From Polyangiaceae bacterium (lineage in GTDB: Bacteria; Myxococcota_A; Polyangia; Polyangiales; Polyangiaceae), in assembly GCA_009780955.1 (NCBI GenBank), contig WQZB01000010.1, forward strand, positions 1 to 64,000: a stretch of 64,000 bases of DNA. Reading direction: 5' to 3'. The notes below the pieces were generated by a model. It made no database searches. It had not been told where the DNA came from and saw only the letters and a program-made list of their open reading frames with translations. The number at the start of each line of letters is the position of its first letter. Positions within the stretch are counted from its first letter, which is position 1. The translations under genes and the position numbers were made by a program. Of the stretch, positions 10,602-14,445 are shown in pieces.

Positions 10602-10917
10602 GAAAAATCCTCTTTCTTGCCTATGGATTTCGTGATCAGCGTAACTGGGTTGCGCTGTAAGGCGATACGGTACAGGTTTGAGTCGGGACATATAGCTCAA
10701 CCGAATTTGGACACGAAAAATTTCTTCCTATTGTACAAAAGGATGATTTCGTAAAGATATTCATGTGTTACCTGCTACCAAAAGGCCCGGCGGGTATGCC
10801 CCTGAACGCCCTTTTGTGATTTTTGAGGAAACTTTTGAAGAAACTGTCCAATGGGGAAAGGCGAGGCACTCTGCAGTAACGTGATCCCGCAACAACTTAT
10901 CAATCTTGGAGAACCAA
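10602..10917. other. Non-coding divergent promoter region
   Basis: About 316 bases between the ADC-like gene (minus) and a lipoprotein gene (plus). The part near 10680-10770 is clearly more AT-rich than its surroundings, as expected for promoters in a GC-rich genome. A weak inverted repeat (CAAAAGG near 10780 and CCTTTTG near 10812) could form a hairpin. I see no convincing gene, riboswitch or repeat-family copy here. Confidence 0.5.
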
Positions 10918-11568
10918 ATGAGAGTTCGCATTCTTTTCGCGCCGGCACTTCTCGCAGCGGTGGTTTTCGCATGTTCGTCAAATTTGACGACTCCGGACGA
11001 CAATACGGGCGGCAGTGACGGAACGAACGCGGGTACCAAAACAGATGCCGGTGACGGAACAGGCGGCAGTAGTAACGCAACAGACGGAGGTGACAGAACG
11101 GATGCGGGTACCAAAACAGACGCCGGCTACGGACATGCCTCGATAACATTCGCCTTCGCGGGTGGCGATTTCACGGGCAACTCTGTCCGTATTTGCGGCT
11201 CACGCCCAGCACCGGATGAGACGTACGAGTGCAGCCCACTTCTGTCATGCTCGTGTTTCAACTTCAACGCGGATGGCAATCTCGTGGACAGCACGGGTGC
11301 CCTTGCCGTGGTCACGGGCCTCTGCCCTTCTGCGGACTCTCCATCCGCGAATTGGAGTTTCGATTATGGGCTTTTCTCCGCGCCCGATTGCGGGGGAACA
11401 CAGCTCAATGATGGGACGCATAACTCCGTATGCTACGACTCCACGGACATTGCCACGCAGGCTTTCCCGAACCAGTCCACCAATGTTGTATTGAATCCGG
11501 GTCTGAATACTAACCATATCCTCTGCAATGCTACTCCTTTCGCGGAAGCCGCTGCCGCACAAGACTAA
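10918..11568 (+). CDS. Secreted lipoprotein with Thr/Asp/Gly-rich linker
   Basis: A 216-residue predicted lipoprotein. The ATG at 10918 follows GGAGA at ideal spacing. The signal peptide (MRVRILFAPALLAAVVFAC) ends in a lipobox with Cys19. Next comes a low-complexity linker with the unit GTKTDAG repeated (NAGTKTDAGDG, DAGTKTDAGYG), typical of surface lipoproteins in myxobacteria. The C-terminal part (ITFAFAGGDFTG onward) is Cys-rich, with at least eight Cys that may form disulfides, including SPLLSCSCFNF. No known domain is recognised. It is flanked by the ADC-like gene and the convergent serpin gene, and its function is unknown. Confidence 0.8.
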   Translation: MRVRILFAPALLAAVVFACSSNLTTPDDNTGGSDGTNAGTKTDAGDGTGGSSNATDGGDRTDAGTKTDAGYGHASITFAFAGGDFTGNSVRICGSRPAPDETYECSPLLSCSCFNFNADGNLVDSTGALAVVTGLCPSADSPSANWSFDYGLFSAPDCGGTQLNDGTHNSVCYDSTDIATQAFPNQSTNVVLNPGLNTNHILCNATPFAEAAAAQD

Positions 11569-11657: not shown

Positions 11658-12947
11658 TCAACTGCCGACGTAACGACCTTGGAAGAGGATGGTGCCGGTG
11701 GCTGAATCGCGAAGGAAAAACACGAAGGGCTTGTCGATCGTGAGCGTCACCTGCTTCGGGGGGGCTGGGCTGGTGCTGCCGTTTGTCACTACCGCTGTGG
11801 CGGCCGCAGCCTCGGTGCCTTTTTCATCGACGCTGATGAAGGCCTGGTGAACAACGTCGGATACGAAGAGCGGCTCGCTCTTCGAGATGCCTGAGAGATC
11901 TGCCTGGTCGCCGAAGAGTGTTGTGGTGCCCAGTGTCTGGAGGGCGCTCTTGAGGCTGAAGCTAGTGCCTTTGATCTCGAATTTGGGTAGCGTCAAATTT
12001 ACCGTTGCCTGTTCGAACGAACCATCCGTGCTTGCGAGGCTCGCGAGCATGGTTGCATCGAGGGAGGACTCAAACGACGCGAGATCGTCGGGAACGATGG
12101 CGGTGAAAGTGACTCCGCCATCGTAGGGGAGCACAACGCATTGCCAACCCGTACCTGCGCCGTACAAAAGCGAAGCGTTCTTCGTCATCATCTGCGCGGT
12201 GCTGTCGCCGTTGACGCCGTGGAAGGTGCCGGCGGTGGTTGCACTCTGCGAGAATGGCGAGCTCCAGCCGCCGTTGAAGTACATCGCATTGACGAGCACC
12301 ACGCGCGTGATGCTCGTGATCGCGCCTTCAGACAAGAGATCTTGGATCTTGTCTTCTGTTTTGTCGGCGACCCAGTTGTTGATGGTGTTTCGCGATGCCT
12401 CGGGGTTGTTGATGAAATCGGTGAGGTAAACGCCAGTGCCGTAGTTGACAGCGAGGGTATCGAGGAAAGGCTGCTCGAAGGTCGTCGTGATCTCGCCCCA
12501 CATCGAATTGGCGACACGAAGCGTGAGTGGCACTTGGCCATCGGTCGCCTGCGGGCGCGACGACAGCGACAGGTCCAGGGCATTGAACGCCGCGTGCAGC
12601 CGATCGTCTGGCAGCGTAAAGTGCATCGTGTTTTTGAGTTCGCTCGCCGTGTCGCCGCGTGCACCGGCATACGTCATGGCAAGGGCAACCGAAACAGAAT
12701 AAGGCGAGAAGAAAAGATTCTTGTTTGCAAACGACGGATCGTTTCGCAACGTCGCGTAGAGGTCGGCGGCGAATGCCGTGTTGCCGTCGCGGAGGGCTGC
12801 GGCTTCTGCGTCGGCTACGTTCGGCGAGGTGTCTCGCGTCAGATCCGAAGCTGCCATCGGCACGGCGCCCGGAGAGTCCGTTTTCGACGACGAGCAACCG
12901 GAGGCAAAAGCAAGGATGGTGCAAAGGATGGGAAGGCTCGAGCGCAT
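11658..12947 (-). CDS. Serpin family lipoprotein (predicted protease inhibitor)
   Basis: A 429-residue secreted lipoprotein whose signal peptide ends LAFASGC. The serpin domain is complete, with FFSPYSVSVALAMTYAGARG, NAMYFNGGWSSPF, FTAIVPDD and the final strand block KPFVFFLRDSATGTILFQGR. The hinge GTEAAAATAVVT has the small residues required for insertion of the reactive loop, so it should be an inhibitory serpin that traps serine or cysteine proteases. Counting from the hinge Glu as P17 puts Ser at P1 within TNGSTSP, but this is approximate. The ATG at 12947 gives the shortest good signal peptide; an ATG at 12977 is also in frame. The gene is convergent with the lipoprotein at 10918. Serpins are uncommon in bacteria. 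Confidence 0.9.
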   Translation of the reverse strand: MRSSLPILCTILAFASGCSSSKTDSPGAVPMAASDLTRDTSPNVADAEAAALRDGNTAFAADLYATLRNDPSFANKNLFFSPYSVSVALAMTYAGARGDTASELKNTMHFTLPDDRLHAAFNALDLSLSSRPQATDGQVPLTLRVANSMWGEITTTFEQPFLDTLAVNYGTGVYLTDFINNPEASRNTINNWVADKTEDKIQDLLSEGAITSITRVVLVNAMYFNGGWSSPFSQSATTAGTFHGVNGDSTAQMMTKNASLLYGAGTGWQCVVLPYDGGVTFTAIVPDDLASFESSLDATMLASLASTDGSFEQATVNLTLPKFEIKGTSFSLKSALQTLGTTTLFGDQADLSGISKSEPLFVSDVVHQAFISVDEKGTEAAAATAVVTNGSTSPAPPKQVTLTIDKPFVFFLRDSATGTILFQGRYVGS

Positions 12948-12977
12948 GACAACGCACGTCAGCACGGGTTGTGCCAT

Positions 12978-12994
12978 AGGATGTTTACCAGCAA
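12978..12994 (-). repeat. R2 end fragment
   Basis: The sequence AGGATGTTTACCAGC matches one terminal inverted repeat of element R2 (AGAGGATGTTTACCAGCC at 31201). Only the end is present, just upstream of the serpin start, so it may be a decayed remnant. At this length a chance match is possible but not likely. Confidence 0.45.
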
Positions 12995-13044
12995 AAACGT
13001 AGATTCTTTCCCACTCTCCATGACAGTGACGTCTGGATTGCGGT

Positions 13045-14445
13045 CTATTCGTTCGCACCAACGCGGGCAAGGAGCGACTCTTGCTCGTCTTCGATGACGG
13101 CAAGGCGATTGATTTCGTTGGTGCCCTCGAAAATCTGCGTGAGACGGACATCGCGAAACGCTTTCTCGACGCGCTTTTCGTGGAGCACGGCGTGGTTGCC
13201 GAGCAGATCCATCGCTTGCTCGCAAACTCGTCGCGCAACATCCGTTGCATAAAACTTCGCCGCCGAGGCCTCGGCTTGCCGCGGTTTCCACGAGCTCGCA
13301 GCCTGCCAGACCATCGCGCGAATGGCACTTGTTTCCGCCATCATTTGCGATAGCTCAGTCTGCACTTCCTGCCGATCGATGAGACGTCGCCGGCCAAGTT
13401 GGAAAGTGCAGGCAAAGTCGATCGCAAGGTCTGTGGCTGCTTGAGCAAAGCCCACGGCCATGGCCGCAACAGGAATGCGCGACATGTTGAGCGTGGCGCG
13501 GTTGATGGCCCAGCCACCACGCAGCCCGCCGACAACATCGCGGTCGGATACGAACACGTCATCGAGATCGAGCTCCGTCGCGCCCGAAGCGCGCATTCCC
13601 ATTTTCATTTCCGTGCGCACCGCTCGGAAACCTGGCGTTTTTGAATCGACGAGAAACGCTGTCCACGATTCCATTCCTTCGCCTTGCAACGCAGCCAAAA
13701 CGACGACGTACGAAGCGATGTCGCCTCCACTGATGAAACACTTGCGCCCGCGAAGCAAAAACCCTCCTTTTACCCGTCGCGCAGTGACACCGGGCGCGTG
13801 CGTTGTCGCGCCGTAGCTATCTTCAACGTCGGACCCACCGCTTGGTTCGGTGATCGCAAACGCAAAAACGCATGGTTCGCCGCGCGCGCACGCTCGGAAT
13901 GCGGGCACGAGATAACGAGAAATCAAGCGAGGATTGCCGGAAAGGAGGACCGGCGCGACACCAAGGGTGTGGGCGCAAACAAGGAGCATGAGCCCACCGT
14001 CGGCTCGACTGAGCTCCTCGGTCTTCAAAGACTGGATCATCCACAGTGGATGGCGCAACAGCCGTGGCGAGAGTGTTCCTATTGGGCGTGGAAGCAGATC
14101 AGAGAGCAGCCCTTTGCTCGCCGCGGCTTTGAGCACATCGCGGCTGAGTGGGTGGAGATCGCCTAGAGCAGAATGCGGAGCCGTGTCGACATCGAGCGCG
14201 TGCGGCGCGATCCAACGCTCGGCGAACGACCGCATGCGACGCCGGTACTTCGCGAGCTCCGGGGCAAGGCGCGCCGTATCGCGTTCCCATGGGTCCATGG
14301 GATCGTAGACAACCAAGGGTCGAACCACGCGGGCGATGTGCTCGAAGGCGCGGCGCGGCGAAAGCGGGTGTGACGGCAAAACGTGCCCGCCGACACCGCG
14401 AGCACCGCCAAAACCAGTTGATGGGTGAGACGCTGAATCAACCAT
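13045..14445 (-). CDS. Acyl-CoA dehydrogenase (catalytically complete subunit)
   Basis: A 466-residue FAD enzyme that oxidises an acyl-CoA to the 2-enoyl-CoA. It shows the FAD/substrate motif AFAITEPSGGSD, the following KCFISGGD strand block, and near the end RLTQIFEGTNEINR, where the Glu of EGTNEI is the catalytic base. The N-terminus is longer than usual by roughly 80 residues. The ATG at 14445 overlaps the stop of the next upstream gene by eight bases (ATGGTTGA), indicating translational coupling with that second acyl-CoA dehydrogenase-like protein. Together they may form a heteromeric enzyme. The natural substrate is not evident. It lies downstream of the partner and upstream of the serpin on the same strand. 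Confidence 0.87.
   Translation of the reverse strand: MVDSASHPSTGFGGARGVGGHVLPSHPLSPRRAFEHIARVVRPLVVYDPMDPWERDTARLAPELAKYRRRMRSFAERWIAPHALDVDTAPHSALGDLHPLSRDVLKAAASKGLLSDLLPRPIGTLSPRLLRHPLWMIQSLKTEELSRADGGLMLLVCAHTLGVAPVLLSGNPRLISRYLVPAFRACARGEPCVFAFAITEPSGGSDVEDSYGATTHAPGVTARRVKGGFLLRGRKCFISGGDIASYVVVLAALQGEGMESWTAFLVDSKTPGFRAVRTEMKMGMRASGATELDLDDVFVSDRDVVGGLRGGWAINRATLNMSRIPVAAMAVGFAQAATDLAIDFACTFQLGRRRLIDRQEVQTELSQMMAETSAIRAMVWQAASSWKPRQAEASAAKFYATDVARRVCEQAMDLLGNHAVLHEKRVEKAFRDVRLTQIFEGTNEINRLAVIEDEQESLLARVGANE

Follow-up and report, generated by a model that had tools for sequence, protein, structure and literature searches.

The gene at 11658-12947 raises the question of whether this bacterium carries a working serpin on its surface, and which proteases such a serpin would trap. 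It was analyzed within a stretch of 64,000 nucleotides, here called the window, and the following features were assigned.

11658..12947, minus strand: serpin gene, 429 amino acids, ATG at 12947 (open frame and Pfam PF00079)
12894..12947, minus strand: predicted signal peptide MRSSLPILCTILAFASG with Cys18 as the predicted lipidation site, lipobox ASGC (sequence and lipobox pattern rule)
11661..12785, minus strand: serpin fold domain, residue 55 to the end (Pfam, AlphaFold2 model, cleaved serpins as nearest structures)
11796..11825, minus strand: hinge EKGTEAAAAT, P17-P8, residues 375-384 (68 of 108 aligned serpins have ExGTEAAAA)
11739..11795, minus strand: bait segment of the reactive centre loop, residues 385-403, AVVTNGSTSPAPPKQVTLT (loop alignment entropy)
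11772..11777, minus strand: predicted scissile bond P1-P1', Ser391-Thr392, alternatively Thr392-Ser393 (17-residue count from E375)

A full-length serpin with a predicted lipoprotein signal

The frame running from 12947 to 11658 on the minus strand encodes 429 amino acids and has no internal stop. A second in-frame ATG at 12977, ten codons upstream, is an equally possible start, and the lipobox is reached from there too. Pfam-A assigned a single family to the protein, PF00079 (Serpin), with 343.3 bits and an E value of 2.6e-102; the score lies above the curated cut-off of 27, and the match covers residues 55-427 and profile positions 2-368 of 370, indicating a full-length serpin domain. This agrees with the first-pass annotation, which had placed a serpin on this strand and at these coordinates. 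The search of NCBIfam returned no family for the protein. Among PDB chains, 199 distinct sequences matched at E ≤ 0.001, the best being a leukocyte elastase inhibitor (E 1.2e-66), which we take to be mouse SERPINB1, followed by SERPINB3. Judged by these sequence matches, the identity of the predicted product as a serpin is far beyond chance.

Residues 1-17 form a short predicted signal peptide, followed by the lipobox candidate FASG-CSSS, with Cys18 as the predicted lipidation site; Cys270 is the only further cysteine in the mature part. The lipobox call was made with a simple pattern rule in place of a trained signal predictor. An earlier version of the rule, which gave 46/81, was discarded because its limit truncated the signal region and left the window gene undetected; the limit and, slightly, the hydrophobicity rule were revised. 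With the revised rule, a lipobox was found in the window serpin (MRSSLPILCTILAFASG followed by CSSS), in 63 of 81 order-level serpins, where shuffled N-terminal stretches gave 2.8 on average, and in 17 of the 27 serpin frames at loci recovered from named bacterial and archaeal genomes. The lipoprotein signal that had been proposed for this protein was thus recovered, and Cys18 would be lipidated, holding the protein on a membrane. Under the E. coli rule, Ser at +2 permits outer-membrane sorting, so the Ser at this position of the window serpin would allow it; the lipobox points to lipidation but to neither face of the membrane, and the anchoring outside that had been proposed is a possibility.

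Hinge, bait loop and structure model

In inhibitory serpins, the hinge follows the motif ExGTEAAAA at P17-P9 (PMC8233489). The hinge of the window serpin, EKGTEAAAA at residues 375-383, fits this motif and is fully canonical over P17-P8, so that the inhibitory-type hinge claimed earlier stands. In the loop table, which kept 108 of 113 distinct serpin frames after the partial ones were dropped, ExGTEAAAA was present in 68 sequences and the variant ExGTEAAAV in 17. When 17 residues were counted from Glu375, P1 fell on Ser391 and P1' on Thr392, in keeping with the Ser previously predicted at P1. Since many relatives have T-S at P1-P1', the bond may lie one residue later, at Thr392/Ser393. The small or beta-hydroxy residues around P1 suggest an elastase- or subtilisin-like enzyme, and either bond position would suit such a protease. 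Few columns of the family alignment vary as much as that of P1, and the entropy at P3-P1 was 3.2-3.4 bits versus a core mean of 1.97 over the 81 order-level rows. In these rows, the window serpin included, P1 was Thr in 23, Gly in 13, Arg in 7, and Ser, Lys, Ala or Glu in 5 each, and P1' was Ser in 36.

Across 23 aligned serpins, positions N77, S81, P82, S84, N190, T197, N220 and W228 (window numbering, offset 44) were invariant, as were P321, E375, A380-A382, T384, P407, F408 and G424; this alignment contains the window serpin, and its invariant columns include window residues by construction. Some of these columns presumably correspond to shutter and breach residues. An AlphaFold2 model computed from residues 45-429 and 22 relatives reached a pLDDT of 87.6 and a pTM of 0.85. 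It shows P15-P2 as a beta strand, i.e., the inserted or relaxed state, with the bait loop beyond at low confidence. All of the 50 PDB matches listed for the model were serpins (TM up to 0.93 by target); the top Foldseek match was the cleaved serpin 1hle at 2.2 Å, and cleaved miropin (5ncu and 5ncw) fitted at 1.7 Å. The model is consistent with loop insertion, but it is no proof of inhibition, because structure predictors habitually draw serpins in the inserted state.

We read the window protein as a lipid-anchored, inhibitory serpin, with a probability of about 0.75. Its PDB relatives include the inhibitory serpins SERPINB1, SERPINB3/B4, antithrombin and chloropin (8gxv), which counts for this reading. 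Against it count the uncommon Ser at P1 (5/81 versus 23/81 order-level rows for Thr) and the stretch YFNGGW, in which Asn replaces the Lys of the relatives' consensus (YFKG). Most likely, the protein would act as a suicide inhibitor shielding the envelope from elastase- or subtilisin-like proteases. After export and lipidation of Cys18, the serpin would sit on a membrane, where a serine protease of either kind would attack the bait loop; some serpins also take cysteine proteases. The cut loop would then insert into sheet A as an extra strand, and the enzyme would be trapped as an acyl complex. The probable benefit is that envelope proteins would be guarded from extracellular proteases, own or foreign.

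Distribution and family tree

Serpin matches were found in 43 of 58 near genomes, the own genome included, in 11 of the 12 genomes of the genus, and in 56 of 140 genomes sampled across the phylum; a set of 14 well-known control genomes gave three. Bacterial serpins had been called uncommon in the first-pass annotation, and this holds for bacteria at large, where they are described as "sparsely distributed" (PMC8233489), but not for this lineage. Since such serpins are common in this bacterial group, the window gene is an ordinary one. When named bacterial and archaeal genomes were scanned with the window protein, a search that may leave out near relatives, 26 loci were returned, the best from Fermentibacterota at 40% identity. 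The largest number of matches in the 140-genome sample was 13 in a single genome, some of them partial. At two loci (L073 in G003:C4 and L065 in G007:C175), the match to the window protein splits in two around residues 277-315 of that protein, where an insert or a diverged stretch may lie.

A quick tree of 83 serpins, which takes in relatives of the order and two Fermentibacterota serpins, grouped the window gene with L029, from another genus of the same order (G027; 50% identity over 370 columns), and with L072, at a support of 88; this group lies within a starred set of 36. The own genome (4.2 Mb, 112 contigs) holds a second serpin (L001, C32:30722-31837). Like the window serpin, it has a serpin domain, a canonical hinge (EEGTEAAAAT) and a lipobox candidate; it differs in its bait, RTTGM, and is 34% identical. 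The main division of the tree separates it from the window gene and places it among serpins from several genomes of the genus.

Genomic neighbourhood

Upstream of the serpin gene, two acyl-CoA dehydrogenase-like ORFs lie on the same strand, and an acetoacetate-decarboxylase-like ORF lies downstream. The first of the dehydrogenase-like neighbours had relatives at ≤37% identity among the genus matches listed, and the decarboxylase-like one had no relative in the other 11 genomes of the genus. The Pfam scan of ten nearby ORFs showed neither an operon nor a protease partner, and the promoter and terminator scan gave nothing at the start of the serpin gene. None of 20 compared loci, the nearest serpins included, had flanking genes in common with the window serpin; a few further matches in this comparison involve distant window ORFs. 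The GC content gave no sign of a recent foreign origin, being 0.592 for the serpin gene and 0.598 for the window.

An open frame of 318 amino acids at 12141-13097 on the plus strand runs antisense to the serpin; it is most likely a shadow, since its matches elsewhere overlap serpin genes on the opposite strand. At 10906-11568 on the plus strand, convergent with the serpin, lies a putative lipoprotein of 220 amino acids for which Pfam gave no family. It belongs to a multi-copy, Cys-rich family with 9 matches in the own genome, 19 in G010, 4 in G004 and none in the other nine genomes of the genus, some of these matches being pieces of a single copy. The N-terminal module is common to the family; the relatives run on into longer, partly differing C-terminal parts, and the window copy is shorter.

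Bait-loop divergence in tandem copies

Neighbouring serpin genes were compared in 12 arrays, chosen by eye from the near genomes, the named genomes and the phylum-wide sample and not exhaustive, two of which (L037 and L046) come from other phyla; one of the two copies at L112 was dropped, as its frame ends in the hinge. In the closest pair of each array, the loop was more divergent than the body in 11/12 arrays (Wilcoxon p 0.0015), e.g., 0.58 versus 0.17 in L087, 0.28 versus 0.06 in L155 and 0.50 versus 0.12 in L153. Compared with body windows of the same length, the loop ranked among the 5% most divergent in 8/12 closest pairs and in 15/25 over all pairs. The ratio of pN in the reactive centre loop (RCL) to that in the body lay between 1.2 and 5.4 in 23 of 25 usable pairs, the exceptions being L109 (0.82) and L156 (0.87), with the caveats that array pairs are not independent, that 14-20 loop codons are few and that gap placement matters. 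In the L073 pair, the RCL had a pN of 0.40 versus a pS of 0.03, and the body pN was 0.126. The group L096/L098/L099, from three genomes, had a body identity of 0.79-0.88 and a loop identity of 0.89-0.94. Set beside the loop-diverging arrays, this loop-keeping group gives the impression that one target has been retained by some serpins, while others have been re-aimed. At L152 (G064:C1:3464000-3481000), five serpin genes follow each other head to tail in a stretch of about 7 kb, and no two of them have the same bait loop. The divergence of loops in tandem copies suggests a target-driven diversification.

Which proteases the serpin may counter

The first-pass suggestion that the serpin protects a predatory cell from its own or prey proteases is speculative. 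For the serpins of Clostridium thermocellum and for miropin, a role as guard against proteases that the cell itself secretes or keeps in its periplasm has been proposed (PMC6718151, PMC4404884), and the own genome offers candidates, with 3 subtilase and 14 trypsin-fold matches. No protease gene adjoins the window serpin among the ten nearby ORFs scanned (serpin included), however, and serpin number showed no clear tie to protease number beyond genome size. Over 58 genomes, with counts that include partial matches and with genome size corrected, the partial r was 0.03 (p 0.85) for subtilases and 0.28 (p 0.03) for trypsin-fold proteases, the latter falling to 0.19 (p 0.22, not significant) when the genus was removed. 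Co-scaling of serpins with own proteases was thus rejected as mostly an effect of genome size, and we regard the own-protease guard as doubtful. It is improbable that the protein is no longer inhibitory and acts in binding or storage: a Streptomyces clade has been suggested to be non-inhibitory though many of its members keep the hinge (PMC8233489), but in the window serpin the hinge is canonical throughout P17-P8 and the invariant core positions are kept.

Slightly better placed than the own-protease guard, and still tentative, is that the window gene belongs to a diversifying repertoire in which duplicates re-aim their bait loops at proteases of competitors, prey, phages or hosts. The 11 arrays whose loops change more than their bodies speak for it, as does the lack of a conserved genome place for serpin loci. 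Yet the window gene is solitary, its nearest relative is 50% identical, and the loop pattern comes from the copies of relatives; the loop is not accelerated in L109 and hardly so in L156, the between-species group L096/L098/L099 keeps its loop, and relaxed constraint or gap placement could raise loop change too. For the phylum as a whole, it is conceivable, if rather unlikely, that its serpins form a lipid-anchored repertoire with tandem copies of constant body and fast-changing bait loops, the window gene being a diverged member; if true, this would be a bacterial counterpart to the serpin arms races of animals.

Comparison with known serpins

Miropin of Tannerella forsythia, which carries a lipid anchor, has the same fold as the window serpin, and its cleaved structures named above are 29-30% identical to it. 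It inhibits elastase, cathepsin G, trypsin, papain, gingipain and subtilisin (PMC6718151); it differs in its bait loop and comes from a host-associated organism. Chloropin of Chlorobium limicola (8gxv) is likewise bacterial, has a signal peptide, matches the window protein at E 1.5e-58, and its loop starts EKGTEAAAATAVV like that of the window serpin. Unlike the latter, it has Arg at P1, and it inhibits thrombin and KLK7 with DNA as accelerator; the part of the source consulted mentions no lipid anchor for it (PMC10090351). Besides L029, relatives of the same order include the genus group L059/L069/L024; identity was 45-47% for L059, L069 and L060/L024, and the genus loci compared have no flanking genes in common with the window serpin. 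These relatives have the hinge in common with it and differ in their bait residues; a lipobox is present in most serpins of the order.

In open-licence PMC literature, judged by titles and abstract starts, nothing was found that linked serpins with myxobacteria or with predation, or that dealt with loop diversification in bacterial tandem copies. The window gene alone adds one more bacterial serpin, and the fast-changing bait loops of its relatives are the more interesting pattern. To explain why few bacteria keep serpins has been named a major goal (PMC8233489), and this lineage, in which 43 of 58 near genomes have a serpin, a single sampled genome gives up to 13 matches and the bait loops of tandem copies diverge, offers a direct testing ground for serpin retention.
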